Positions 6,949 through 63,055 of a stretch of DNA of 64,000 nucleotides are shown piece by piece. Position 1 is the stretch's first letter, and the number at the start of each line of letters is the position of its first letter. Where the stretch lies: the NCBI RefSeq assembly GCF_039233145.1, contig NZ_CP136419.1, positions 1,028,001-1,092,000 of the forward strand. Reading direction: 5' to 3'. A model generated the notes under the pieces. It was given only the letters and a program-made list of their open reading frames with translations, was not told where the DNA came from and searched no databases. Made by a program: the position numbers and the translations under genes. Source of the DNA: Moorella humiferrea (GTDB taxonomy: Bacteria; Bacillota; DSM-521; Neomoorellales; Neomoorellaceae).

Positions 6949-7123
6949 CTTTTTCACTACCTTAGCAGGAACTCCCGTTCTGGTGGCGAATAGCAAATGT
7001 GGGTCAAAAAACCACCAGGGGGTTGAACATGTTAGCCATTGTCAATTCCGTCGTCCTGGTAGGCCTGGAGGGCCAAAGTGTACGGGTAGAAGTGGATATT
7101 AGTAACGGTTTGCCTGTTTGTGA
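6949..7123 (+). repeat. Direct repeat copy A: comM leader plus first 31 codons
   Basis: 175 bases aligning with 8342-8517 at roughly 90% identity. It includes the leader hairpin and the first 31 codons of comM. All five differing codons in the coding part are synonymous, so this copy evolved as a working gene before it was cut off. It bounds the left side of the VapBC-type cassette. Confidence 0.85.
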
Positions 7124-7136
7124 GAGTGTTGGTTAA
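7029..7136 (+). pseudogene. Truncated 5' end of a second comM copy
   Basis: A 35-codon frame starts at ATG 7029 with the same 31 residues as the intact comM at 8423, then diverges and stops at 7134-7136. The AAA+ and chelatase-like domains are missing, so it cannot be functional. It lies upstream of the VapBC-type pair. Confidence 0.8.
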
Positions 7137-8341: not shown

Positions 8342-8517
8342 CTTTTTTCACCACCTTAGCAGGAACTCCCGTTCTGGTGGCGAATAGCAAATATTGGACA
8401 TAAAACCACCTGGGGGTTCAAAATGCTGGCCATTGTCAATTCCGTCGTTCTCGTGGGCCTGGAGGGCCAAAGTGTACGGGTAGAGGTGGATATTAGTAAC
8501 GGTTTGCCTGTTTGTGA
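8342..8517 (+). repeat. Direct repeat copy B: leader and 5' end of the intact comM
   Basis: The right-hand partner of the 6949-7123 repeat. It contains a leader hairpin (8351-8355 with 8376-8380, inner pairing 8363-8366 with 8371-8374) that also forms in copy A with one G-U style change. It runs into the intact comM gene. Confidence 0.85.
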
Positions 8518-9967
8518 CATAGTAGGCCTACCGGATCCCTCCGTAAAAGAAGCCCGGGAGCGGGTGCGGGCGGCCATTAAAAATTCCGGCTTTGATTTCC
8601 CTTTACGTCGGATAATTGTTAACCTGGCCCCCGGAGATATTAAAAAAGAAGGGCCCATCTATGATCTGCCCATCGCCCTGGGCATTTTGATAGCGGCGGA
8701 AGAGCTGGGCGGCGGACCGGCGGTGCCTGTCTACGCGGTGGGCGAGCTCTCCCTGGAAGGTAGCCTGCGGCCTATACCCGGGGTTCTGCCCATGGCCCTG
8801 GCCCTACAAGAACTCCGGCCGGGAGCTACCTTCATCGTCCCGGCGGCCAATGCCAACGAAGCCGCCCTGGCCTCCAGGATCAAGGTGCTGGCGGCAGATA
8901 GTCTGGCCCAGGTGGTAGCATTCTTGCGGGGGGATGGGGAACTGCCCGAGGTTAAACCGGCGGCAGGAGAAATACCGCCTCCGGTTTTTAACGGTGTCGA
9001 CCTAGCCGACATCAAGGGTCAGATTGCCGCCAAGAGGGGATTGGAAATAGCGGCCGCCGGTGGCCATAATATCCTCCTCATCGGCAGTCCCGGCTCGGGG
9101 AAAACCATGCTGGCCCGGAGCCTGCCTTCAATCCTGCCGCCCCTCACCTATGAAGAGGCCCTTACCGTAACCAAGATTTACAGCGTCGCCGGGCTGCTGG
9201 CCCCCGGCCAGGGGCTGGTAACGGAGCGCCCCTTCCGAACACCCCACCACACAGCTTCAACGGCCAGCATTATCGGCGGCGGCCGTATCCCTAAACCCGG
9301 GGAAGTGAGCCTGGCCACCCACGGCGTCCTTTTCCTGGATGAAATGGCCGAATACCGCCGCGACGTTCTGGAAGCCCTGCGTCAGCCCCTGGAAGACAGG
9401 GTGGTCACAGTCTCGCGGGTGGCGGCCGCCGTTACCTATCCTGCCGATTTTCTATTGATCGGCAGCATGAATCCCTGCCCCTGCGGCTACTATGGCGATC
9501 CGGTCAAGGAATGCCTGTGCACCACCCACCAGGTCGCCCAGTACCGGAAAAGGTTATCCGGGCCTTTACTGGACCGGATAGACCTGCACCTGGAAGTTCC
9601 CCGGCTGACCTACCATGAAGTCGAAACCGGGACCACGCCGGAAAACTCGGCTGCTGTAAGGGAGCGGGTTACGGCCGCCCGCCTGAAGCAGCGGGAGAGG
9701 TTTAAGGGGACGGGGGTGGCCTGCAATGCCGCCATGACCCCGCGCCAGGTACATCAATTTTGCCGCCTGGAACACCAGGCGCGCGCCCTTTTACGCGATG
9801 CCTTCAACAAGTTGGGCCTCTCCATGCGGGCCCATGACCGCCTGCTCAAGGTGGCCCGCACCATCGCCGACCTGGAAGGATCGGAGTTGATAACTGCCGC
9901 CCACCTGGCTGAAGCTATCCAGTACCGCAGCCTGGACTGGGGCGAAGAGAAACAGGCAATACGGTAA
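8423..9967 (+). CDS. comM: YifB/ComM family Mg chelatase-like AAA+ ATPase
   Basis: 514 residues, ATG 8423 after GGGGG. The order is typical: an N-terminal ChlI-like domain (about 20-140), a Walker A motif GSPGSGKT near residue 220, Walker B with LFLDEMAEY, a CPCGYYGDP cysteine loop, and a C-terminal winged helix. In Gram-negative bacteria ComM is a helicase that helps branch migration of incoming DNA during transformation; the Firmicute role is assumed similar. dprA, another DNA-uptake gene, lies 2 kb downstream. A truncated, synonymously diverged copy of its 5' end lies upstream at 7029. Confidence 0.9.
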   Translation: MLAIVNSVVLVGLEGQSVRVEVDISNGLPVCDIVGLPDPSVKEARERVRAAIKNSGFDFPLRRIIVNLAPGDIKKEGPIYDLPIALGILIAAEELGGGPAVPVYAVGELSLEGSLRPIPGVLPMALALQELRPGATFIVPAANANEAALASRIKVLAADSLAQVVAFLRGDGELPEVKPAAGEIPPPVFNGVDLADIKGQIAAKRGLEIAAAGGHNILLIGSPGSGKTMLARSLPSILPPLTYEEALTVTKIYSVAGLLAPGQGLVTERPFRTPHHTASTASIIGGGRIPKPGEVSLATHGVLFLDEMAEYRRDVLEALRQPLEDRVVTVSRVAAAVTYPADFLLIGSMNPCPCGYYGDPVKECLCTTHQVAQYRKRLSGPLLDRIDLHLEVPRLTYHEVETGTTPENSAAVRERVTAARLKQRERFKGTGVACNAAMTPRQVHQFCRLEHQARALLRDAFNKLGLSMRAHDRLLKVARTIADLEGSELITAAHLAEAIQYRSLDWGEEKQAIR

Positions 9968-26346: not shown

Positions 26347-27522
26347 ATGGCCAGGGAAATAACCGTGCTGGGTTCGACGGGTTCCATGGGCCGCCAGACT
26401 TTGGAGGTGGTGGCCGCACACCCCGGCCGCTTTAAAGTGGCCGCACTCGCCGCCGCCCGGAATGTCGAATTAATGACCGCCCAGGCAAAACGATTTCATC
26501 CCCGTCTTGCCGTTCTCCTGGATCCTGCCGGAGCCCAGGAGCTTGCTTCCCGGTTACGGGGAACGGGGGTGCGGGTCTTAACGGGAGATGAAGGCGTCCT
26601 GGCCGCCGCCACCTTGGAAGGCGTAGAACTGGTCGTGGCCGCCATGGTGGGTATCCGCAGCCTGCCGGCGGTTCTGGCCGCCCTGGAGTCCGGCAAAGAT
26701 ATCGCCATAGCCAATAAAGAACTGCTGGTGGCCGCCGGCGATGTGATTATGGGACGTGCCCATACCCTGAAACGCCGGGTGCTTCCGGTAGACAGCGAGC
26801 ACTCAGCCATTTTTCAATGCCTGAACCGGGGCGGCCCGGTGGAGGAAGTTATAATTACGGCTTCGGGTGGACCCTTTCGTGATAAAACCTTAGAAGAAAT
26901 GGCTGCCGTCACTCCGGAAGAAGCGTTGCAACACCCTACGTGGGTCATGGGGCCCAAGGTTACCGTCGATTCCGCCACCTTGATGAATAAAGGCTTGGAA
27001 GTTATAGAAGCCAAGCACCTCTTCAACCTGGACTATGACCGGATTACCGTACTCATCCATCCCCAGAGCGTCGTTCATGCTTTGGTGCGCTACGGCGATG
27101 GCTCCCTTTTCGCCCACCTGGGCCCTGCCGATATGCGCCTGCCCATTCAGTATGCCCTGACCTGGCCGGAACGCTGGGAACTGAATGTCCGCAAATTGGA
27201 CCTGGCTGACCTGGGACACCTGGACTTCAGCCACCCCGATGTTAAGCGTTTTCCCTGTCTGGAGCTGGCCTACCACGCCGGACGGGCCGGGGGTACTTGC
27301 CCGGCGGTATTGAGCGCTGCCGACGAGGTTGCCGTGGAATTTTTCCTGGCTGGTAAAATACCGTTGACGGCTATCAGCCAGGTGGTAGCCAGGGTTCTGG
27401 AGGAACACAGACCGGCGGCGGCAGACGACCTTGAGGCGATTCTTGCCGCCTATTCTTGGGCGCGGCGACGGGCGGAAGTAGTGGCGGAAGGGTTTTGCAA
27501 GGGAAGCCCTCATAAGGGCTGA
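26347..27522 (+). CDS. dxr: 1-deoxy-D-xylulose 5-phosphate reductoisomerase
   Basis: 391 residues; ATG 26347 directly follows the previous stop. NADPH site GSTGSMGRQTLEVV at residues 7-20, metal and substrate blocks DSEHSAIFQCL and TVDSATLMNKGLEVIEAKHLF. Second step of the MEP isoprenoid pathway; ispG lies two genes downstream. A structured non-coding element separates it from rseP. Confidence 0.97.
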   Translation: MAREITVLGSTGSMGRQTLEVVAAHPGRFKVAALAAARNVELMTAQAKRFHPRLAVLLDPAGAQELASRLRGTGVRVLTGDEGVLAAATLEGVELVVAAMVGIRSLPAVLAALESGKDIAIANKELLVAAGDVIMGRAHTLKRRVLPVDSEHSAIFQCLNRGGPVEEVIITASGGPFRDKTLEEMAAVTPEEALQHPTWVMGPKVTVDSATLMNKGLEVIEAKHLFNLDYDRITVLIHPQSVVHALVRYGDGSLFAHLGPADMRLPIQYALTWPERWELNVRKLDLADLGHLDFSHPDVKRFPCLELAYHAGRAGGTCPAVLSAADEVAVEFFLAGKIPLTAISQVVARVLEEHRPAAADDLEAILAAYSWARRRAEVVAEGFCKGSPHKG

Positions 27523-27563
27523 CGCCCGCACATACGAAAGATAAAAATTTGCCGGGTCGTTAG

Positions 27564-27817
27564 GGTGGGGATATGTCCCGGAGCCGCGAATAGTGAAGCG
27601 CCGGTAACAGGACAGGCGAGGTGAGGCAACCGCTGCCGGAGCCGAGGACGCCTGAGCGTACCCTGGCTAGGAATATAGTGCTATCGCATAGAAGGATCTA
27701 AGCCGGCGAGCAGAAAGCCTGTTCATGGGCAATCCACAGGCGACGAGCAGCGGTACGAACCGAGCCGTTGTCCTGTCGGCGCGTAACTCCTGAGCGGCGC
27801 AGGGACATATCCCCACC
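27564..27817 (+). ncRNA. 254-nt structured RNA-like element between dxr and rseP (HEARO-like candidate)
   Basis: The ends form a perfect 16-bp helix: 27564-27579 with 27802-27817. Nested inside are 27583-27587/27794-27798, 27598-27603/27777-27782 and 27607-27614/27769-27776. Interior hairpins lie at 27615-27618/27649-27652, 27717-27722/27736-27741 and 27751-27754/27759-27762. Such nesting over 254 bases is very unlikely by chance. There is no credible coding frame. Size, the long closing helix and the insertion inside a core operon resemble HEARO/omega RNAs of IsrB-type elements, here without a protein gene. That class assignment is from memory and unverified; the structure itself is read directly. 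Confidence 0.65.
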
Positions 27818-27867
27818 AGAAGGAACCATTTCTGGCAGAACCATATTCTTTAAGGAGCTGAGGTCCG

Positions 27868-50924: not shown

Positions 50925-51136
50925 CTCATCTCGTGTGCAGTGGGGTAGAGGTGCAGCGGGCAAGAGTACCGCCGGTGAGGTTTCGGGCACCTGTGAGACG
51001 GCGAGAAAGGGTACGCTGCCGAAGGGAGAAGAGAACCCGAGGCCTTCTCCCTGGGCCGGTTTCTGAAAAAGGACCGGACTGTCACCATAAAATAATGGTG
51101 GAGCGCTACTCGCACGAAGAGGCCGGGCGAGATGAG
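50925..51136 (+). promoter_or_regulatory. Lysine riboswitch (L box)
   Basis: The conserved core elements appear in order: AGAGGTGC (50947-50954), AAGAGTA, GGTGAGG, AGAAAGGGTACGCTGCCGAAG (positions 51004-51024), CTGGG and TGGTGGAGCGCTACT (51095-51109). The closing helix P1 is extended by 50925-50933 pairing with 51128-51136. It senses lysine and precedes dapB, the expected target. Confidence 0.92.
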
Positions 51137-61452: not shown

Positions 61453-62187
61453 GTGCCCTCAATCGATCTCCCGATCAAACGTTTGGTCCAGCGAAGAGCT
61501 GGTGACTGGGTAAGATTTCTACAACGGTCATGCCGGGAAGAGTGGATTAGGCCATGAGCCCATGGGCTATTACGACCCGGCTCTACCGGCCCGGATGATG
61601 CGCTACCACTAGCTCAGTGATTACTGGGGTAACTTAAAGACCCTGGAATTTACCTACCGGGTAGTTCGGGTTTGGGAAGAGCCCAGGCAATCCGTAATAG
61701 AGCGGGGACTTATCGGTCTTTACCCCCTGCTTCCGTTAATGAAGGGAGAAAAAGGAGAAGAGGCCAGACAGGTTTTACAGCAGAGTATAACAGTAGTAAG
61801 CGAAATTGAGGATGAGGCTCTCCGGCAGGATCTTCTAGTGGTTATGGGAATCTTGGCCGGGGGTAAATACGCGGCAGAATTGGTTTATTCAATGATAAGG
61901 AGGGAAATGGTAATGCAGTCGCCAATTTACCAGGAATGGGTAAGGGAAGAGCGTGCAGAAGCGGAAACTAAAGGCAGGATGGAAGGCCGGATGGAAAAAT
62001 CCTAAGAGATTATCTGCAAGTACCTCTCCCACAATTCGGGCAGCACTCTGCTGATTTGCAAGAAAAGGTGCAGAAAATAAGCGACCTCCAAATCCTGGAC
62101 CGCATTCTGGAAGAACTGTTTACTGCTGATACTATAGAGGAAGCACGGGCAGTTATTTTAGTAAAGATCGCCGGGAACCTCCAGTAG
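61453..62187 (+). pseudogene. Degenerate Rpn-family (PD-(D/E)XK nuclease/transposase) gene
   Basis: It starts at GTG 61453 with PSIDLPIKRLVQRR...DWVRFL and stops at 61557. It resumes in another frame with YRVVRVWEEPRQ and PLLPLMKGEKGEE, breaks by an in-frame TAG near 61615, and continues to SPIYQEWVREERAEAE. A further frame change near 62005 leads to the family's C-terminal coiled segment ending at TAG 62185. Rpn proteins are recombination-promoting nucleases common as multi-copy genes in these genomes. At least one deletion, one nonsense codon and two frame changes inactivate it. Confidence 0.75.
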
Positions 62188-62232
62188 GTGCTTTTAGGCT
62201 CCGAACAACTGCGCTGCCGGCTCAGGAGTACG
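62087..62232 (+). repeat. Direct repeat R1 (Rpn gene 3' end)
   Basis: 146 bases matching 62910-63055 with 10 mismatches and no gaps. It covers the last 33 codons of the Rpn remnant and 45 bases beyond. It lies left of the DUF433/DUF5615 pair. Confidence 0.9.
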
Positions 62233-62908: not shown

Positions 62909-63010
62909 GTCCAAATCCTGGACCGCATTCTAGATGAGCTGTTTACTGCTGATACTATAGAAGAAGCGCGGGCAGTTATTTTAGGAAAGATCGCCGGGGG
63001 CCTCCAGTAG
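62909..63010 (+). pseudogene. Second fragment of an Rpn gene 3' end
   Basis: 33 codons read VQILDRILDELFTADTIEEA and end at TAG 63008-63010, almost the same residues as the end of the remnant at 62187. Only the C-terminal tail is present, within direct repeat R2. Confidence 0.8.
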
Positions 63011-63055
63011 GTGCTTTTAGGCTCCGAACAACTGCGCTGCCGGCTCCGGGGTACG
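62910..63055 (+). repeat. Direct repeat R2 (Rpn gene 3' end)
   Basis: The right-hand partner of 62087-62232, about 93% identical over 146 bases. Together they frame the DUF433/DUF5615 cassette. Confidence 0.9.

Follow-up and report, generated by a model that had tools for sequence, protein, structure and literature searches.

The 254-nt structured element that lies between dxr and rseP in Moorella humiferrea is probably (estimated probability about 0.72) the core, designated T1, of a non-autonomous mobile structured repeat of about 350 nt, which was inserted at the rseP Shine-Dalgarno sequence and belongs to a 'GA-rod' superfamily that also comprises T2, T3 and RNAs matching TwoAYGGAY. The T1 family is previously undescribed, is not in Rfam and is a distant relative of the orphan TwoAYGGAY RNA. 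The observations behind this reading are dispersal, presence and absence at orthologous sites, a conserved rod, tandem GA steps, homology to other families and occurrence in both orientations. The window is the whole 64,000-nt stretch that was analysed (contig NZ_CP136419.1, positions 1,028,001 to 1,092,000), and its genome is referred to as G000.

Structured core and inserted unit

A sequence-only reading of the window had described a 254-nt nested structure at 27564–27817, with a perfect 16-bp closing helix, as an insertion in a core operon. The structure is present and far more stable than expected by chance, with a minimum free energy of −137.7 kcal/mol, whereas 200 shuffled sequences averaged −93.3 (sd 4.5; z = −9.8) and none of them folded as low. 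The closing helix, GGTGGGGATATGTCCC / GGGACATATCCCCACC, is indeed perfect over 16 bp. The insertion was borne out by the dxr–rseP junction of M. mulderi (G002), which is empty (TTTTGCAAAGGAGTTGAGG; it reads GGGTTTTGCAAAGGAGTTGAGGCCCGGTG); the window junction consists of GGGTTTTGCAAGGGAAG, the insert and then TTTAAGGAGCTGAGGTCCGGTG. From this comparison, the unit therefore covers approximately 27507–27857 at the rseP Shine-Dalgarno sequence, one of which is left in place. The inserted unit is thus larger than the stretch first noted, and it provides the dxr stop codon as well as new last dxr codons. An AGGAG-like sequence flanks it on both sides. The features, all on the + strand, are as follows.

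27507..27857 (+), bounds approximate: whole inserted unit (5' frame, T1 core and 3' frame), set against the empty G002 junction and the frames of other copies
27507..27563 (+): 5' outer frame, common to T1, T2 and T4 elements (frame search, 83% to the frame consensus)
27520–27522 (+): dxr stop codon TGA within the 5' outer frame (ORF table, dxr end 27522)
27564..27817 (+): T1 structured core, 254 nt (from its fold, the alignment of 40 copies and the counts of pairs)
27564..27579 (+): left arm of the closing helix, 16 bp, hypervariable in sequence and paired in each copy (12/16 pairs with two-sided changes)
27618..27619 (+): first tandem GA/GA step, GA opposite GA 27762–27763 (37/40 copies, columns 57–58/212–213)
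27623..27624 (+): second tandem GA/GA step, GA opposite GA 27757–27758 (37/40 copies, columns 62–63/207–208)
27588..27589 (+): third tandem GA/GA step, GA opposite GA 27792–27793 (31/40 copies, columns 26–27/243–244)
27802..27817 (+): right arm of the closing helix (fold and pair counts)
27818..27851 (+): 3' outer frame, AGAAGGAACCATTTCTGGCAGAACCATATTCTTT (frame search and right-flank alignment)
27852..27857 (+): rseP Shine-Dalgarno AAGGAG at the insertion site (sequence; the empty site in G002 has AAAGGAG)

Conservation of the fold

The fold was evaluated in an alignment (A1) of 40 full-length T1 copies. Six nested rod helices, with 58 pairs in total, were 87–98% paired, in counts that are biased toward the structure of one member because the structures were derived partly from its fold. 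The nested helices of the sequence-only reading were therefore upheld in part: the six rod helices were kept across the 40 copies, whereas three inner helices of the window structure were only 49–67% paired and are poorly conserved. Compensatory changes in homologues, which that reading had made the touchstone of its structure, were found on both sides of 19 of the 58 rod pairs. Twelve of these 19 lie in the closing helix of 16 pairs, which varies in sequence from copy to copy with its pairing kept. The covariation score of the whole structure was 0.174, compared with 0.110 for shuffled alignments, none of 500 of which reached it, and the signal was lost when helix partners were slid or shuffled. 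Between the ribH-site orthologues of G000 and G005, three compensatory double changes and no broken pairs were observed; the other orthologous T1 pairs presented some broken pairs. T1 was found to diverge at about the same rate as its mostly coding flanks, and is therefore not a free-running spacer. Conversion between copies could also be the cause of this slow divergence, and a host function could be as well, which counts against the mobile-repeat reading.

Tandem GA/GA steps and the likely functional strand

The signature of the superfamily is a rod of short helices parted by tandem GA/GA loops. In predicted folds, most two-by-two internal loops were GA/GA: 125 of 147 for T3-like copies, 72 of about 100 for T1 copies and 41 of roughly 50 for distant members. 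On the complementary strand these steps read TC/TC, and its fold was less stable in 38 of the 40 T1 copies and in all 22 T3-like copies. A GU-versus-AC strand test on the rod gave equal cells and no asymmetry, so the choice of the sense strand as the likely functional one rests on the GA steps and the folding energy. Many of these GU and AC cells may reflect decay after insertion.

The equal GU and AC cells also agree with a plainer account, in which the element is a DNA palindrome of the kind formed by MITE terminal inverted repeats, its fold is meaningless beyond the ends and its arms are kept paired by arm-templated correction. The arms do act like terminal inverted repeats, and coreless derivatives arise through deletion at the stem. 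Such correction should, however, remove mismatches, yet the GA/GA steps are kept, which argues against it; they persist from genus to genus, with GA on the strand that folds better, and the inner rod helices covary as well as the ends. This account is accordingly regarded as unlikely. Another origin of the closing stem, by capture from a target palindrome, was not supported, since the empty sites are without such palindromes.

The dxr–rseP junction and other insertion sites

The comparison of dxr–rseP spacers among relatives that the sequence-only reading had proposed revealed junctions of several kinds in addition to the empty one of M. mulderi. In G001 the junction holds a deletion remnant, in G005 and G008 a different, related core (T2), and in G004, G009 and G010 no insert. 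These junctions bear on the possibility that the element is a cis-regulatory RNA of the dxr–rseP operon (a riboswitch, attenuator or leader), as might be supposed from its strong fold and its sense orientation directly upstream of rseP. At the same junction in relatives it is absent or different, its copies elsewhere precede unrelated genes in either orientation, and it has no Rfam match; because of the empty sites and the two orientations, cis-regulation is considered very unlikely.

A DNA search of the G000 chromosome (2.67 Mb) returned about ten further T1 copies or fragments, and the family was detected in 10 of 11 Moorella genomes, with up to 28 matches in one. No T1 was found by DNA search in seven genomes from six other genera of the taxonomic family, an exact-pattern search outside Moorella gave only three short chance matches, and plasmid, phage and viral-contig collections were without a T1 match. 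Nothing relevant was found in the literature on Moorella repeats. Five further T1 sites of G000 were compared across the genus. Four of them were empty at the homologous junction in some species and occupied by T1, T2, T3 or T4 in others; for the fifth (s2180), only two other species were read, and both lacked the element. Orientation also varied at orthologous sites: T1 was antisense in G000 and G005 and sense in G008 at the ribH site, sense in G000 and antisense in G001 and G007 at the s819 site, and antisense in G000 and G002 and sense in G007 and G008 at the s861 site.

The outer frame, GGAGGAGCCCCTCATGGGGGCTGACGCC... / ...CATTTTTGGCAGAACCCTATTTTCGGAGGAG, was found around T1, T2 or T4 cores and also with no core inside. 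T2 is abundant in some species, with at least 40 scored matches among 143 candidates in G004 and 36 in G009; its closing stem covaries too, and one T2 copy (L124) is inverted within its frame. Nested insertions of T3 inside T1 were observed at two loci (L019 and L208). T4, a fourth core closed by GGGGGAGGCAGGTTCCC / GGGAACCTGCCTCCCCC, occurs in the same outer frame (L219, G008), and T5, a small repeat with the ends CCCAGCACTCAC / GTGAGTGCTGGG, lies inside T3 (L208 and L210).

MITE-type non-autonomous repeats, for example ERIC/IRU and NEMIS/Correia, are well known in bacteria. T1 is likewise dispersed, insertion-polymorphic and non-coding, and it shares with such repeats a short length, an intergenic location, inverted terminal arms, presumed co-transcription with operons and a presence that varies between species. 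It differs from them in its complex internal fold, its conserved GA/GA steps, its homologues over a phylum and its closing arms, which vary between copies yet covary. In addition, no target duplication above chance was observed at the T1 core ends, no transposase was found for T1, and the genus-wide search of Moorella brought out no long element bearing both T1 ends; the first two of these results count against the mobile-repeat reading.

Comparison with Rfam and HEARO RNAs

The sequence-only reading had favoured a stand-alone HEARO/omega RNA (an IsrB- or IscB-type guide RNA) without its protein, with the 5' flank as a possible guide, and had suggested searches with Rfam models and for the genes. 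Like HEARO RNAs (RF02033), T1 is large, structured and set in a mobile-element context. The likeness ends there: no Rfam model, HEARO included, matched the 27564–27817 region at the gathering cut-off or at E ≤ 10 with permissive filters, no RRXRR (IscB/IsrB) gene is present in G000, and in subfamily A the 5' flank, far from being a variable guide beside a constant scaffold, is the outer frame shared by the copies of a dispersed repeat. The probability left to this reading is negligible. Among ten relatives, one RRXRR gene was found; this IscB-type gene, in G010 (L236, G010:C7:62933-63448; open frame of 425 aa), is the only one in the eleven Moorella genomes. The other option of the same reading, a new RNA class, was supported. 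The covariance models place T1 with a TwoAYGGAY-related superfamily.

The wider superfamily and TwoAYGGAY

Two covariance models were employed, R1, built from T1 only, and R2, built from 21 T3-like copies without T1, in whose alignment 93.6% of cells were paired and 30 of 51 pairs had two-sided changes. R1 gave two weak matches in another family of the order, and DNA similarity to their loci uncovered T3-like elements in six genera within the class. Of 398 genomes of the phylum, 77 had R2 members, and these fell in 53 of the 267 genera sampled; at most six candidates were scored per genome, so the copy numbers are lower bounds. With the E-values of these home-made models taken as rough, R2 detected 17 of 32 T1 loci in the right place and on the right strand (best E of 3.4e-5, with no unrelated match better than E 2.4) and each of the 17 T2 loci examined (E as low as 1.7e-10). 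R1 in turn picked up T3-like, T2 and distant loci, with E-values reaching 2e-9. On this reciprocal covariance detection, T1, T2, T3 and the phylum-wide loci are grouped as homologues in one superfamily.

The TwoAYGGAY motif (Rfam RF01731) was reported by Weinberg et al. 2010 (PMC2864571); tandem GAs in its stem were noted, and its loops were proposed to bind CsrA (PMC4333381). Four distant R2 loci scored 35–43 bits with the Rfam model (cut-off 43), and in several genomes the RF01731 search of the phylum hit the same places as R2. AYGGAY loops occur in T3-like copies, those of G021 and G017 among them, and T3 copies carry ACAGGATGT-like loops. T1 belongs to this TwoAYGGAY-related superfamily by its covariance homology, through a chain of models, and by the rod with tandem GA steps that the two have in common. 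RF01731, however, did not match T1 at E ≤ 10, nor any listed Moorella genome in the phylum search, and the two AYGGAY-loop hairpins are absent from the T1 alignment; T1 is therefore a relative, not a member, of TwoAYGGAY. It further differs in its longer closing stem and in being mobile and insertion-polymorphic, as seen here. The lack of AYGGAY loops and of an RF01731 match also counts against the mobile-repeat reading as framed above. As a separate observation, a superfamily element in G288 (L299, about 1470–1710) lies inside a T-box leader and splits the T-box match at 1321–1865.

Mobility and inversion in relatives

Three T3-like copies in G017 share at least 99% identity across some 262 bp. 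They are enclosed by the 15-bp imperfect terminal repeats CTGAGTTATCCCCAG / CTGGGGATACGCCAG, with a 9-bp duplication outside these that is exact in two copies (TACTGCCAC and ATTATTCAT) and carries a single mismatch in the other. The footprint, which surrounds a core of the same kind, is of the transposon type. Clear 9-bp target duplications were seen only in these G017 relatives, and the G018 copies have outer ends that differ from those of G017. That the footprint belongs to a T3-like relative with other ends weighs against its extension to T1.

In genus g91, a single-copy TwoAYGGAY-like element occupies the same locus in three species and is inverted in one (L305 in G138, compared with L304 in G243 and L306 in G104, around 1480–1700). 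Its identity of 97.6%, against 90–92% in the flanks, suggests a conserved function there, and the arrangement of the sequences suggests an in-place inversion at the closing arms. The main rival explanation draws on this case: T1 would be a putative functional trans-acting sRNA, TwoAYGGAY-like and perhaps titrating CsrA, that was spread by mobile elements and whose fold is kept for a host job. The homology to TwoAYGGAY with its proposed CsrA binding, the ACAGGATGT-like loops of T3 and the conservation of the g91 element, though it is inverted in one species, all speak for it. Against it, the AYGGAY loops are lost in T1, GGA is not invariant in the T1 loops, and copy number and presence differ widely among species. 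This explanation fits the g91 element better than the window copy, for which it is judged improbable, if still the foremost of the alternatives.

Proposed mechanism and implications

Under the mobile-repeat reading, a non-coding, non-autonomous repeat of about 350 nt would have inserted at the rseP Shine-Dalgarno site, with a Shine-Dalgarno sequence before rseP and a stop codon for dxr afterwards, so that the operon would still be readable. The sense strand is predicted to fold into a rod of short helices with tandem GA/GA steps between them, closed by a stem whose sequence would drift with its pairing kept. Movement would probably be driven by a transposase acting in trans, as the G017 footprint of a T3-like relative with different ends would indicate, and selection presumably maintains the fold, as RNA or as single-stranded DNA. 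The dxr–rseP copy itself would be tolerated cargo, not a regulator. More tentatively, and at somewhat less than even odds, TwoAYGGAY-type RNAs as a whole might be part of phylum-wide mobile, invertible folded elements and not ordinary sRNAs; the transmissible unit would be the tandem-GA rod, carried between transposon-like ends of different kinds and in some cases domesticated into a conserved RNA that acts in trans, and T1 would be a branch without the protein-binding loops.

The orphan TwoAYGGAY thereby gains an evolutionary context, with relatives that are abundant, mobile, insertion-polymorphic and invertible, and new families outside Rfam are described with an unusual, testable architecture of short-helix rods joined by tandem GA steps. 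In a thermophilic acetogen, operons can accommodate inserts of about 350 nt at Shine-Dalgarno sites, and annotation that calls single copies riboswitches or guide RNAs would mislead.

Other features of the window

A clear lysine riboswitch is located at 50938–51116 (+; 123.5 bits). Long direct repeats were also observed at 6950–7132 and 8344–8526 (90% identical) and at 62087–62232 and 62910–63055 (93% identical).
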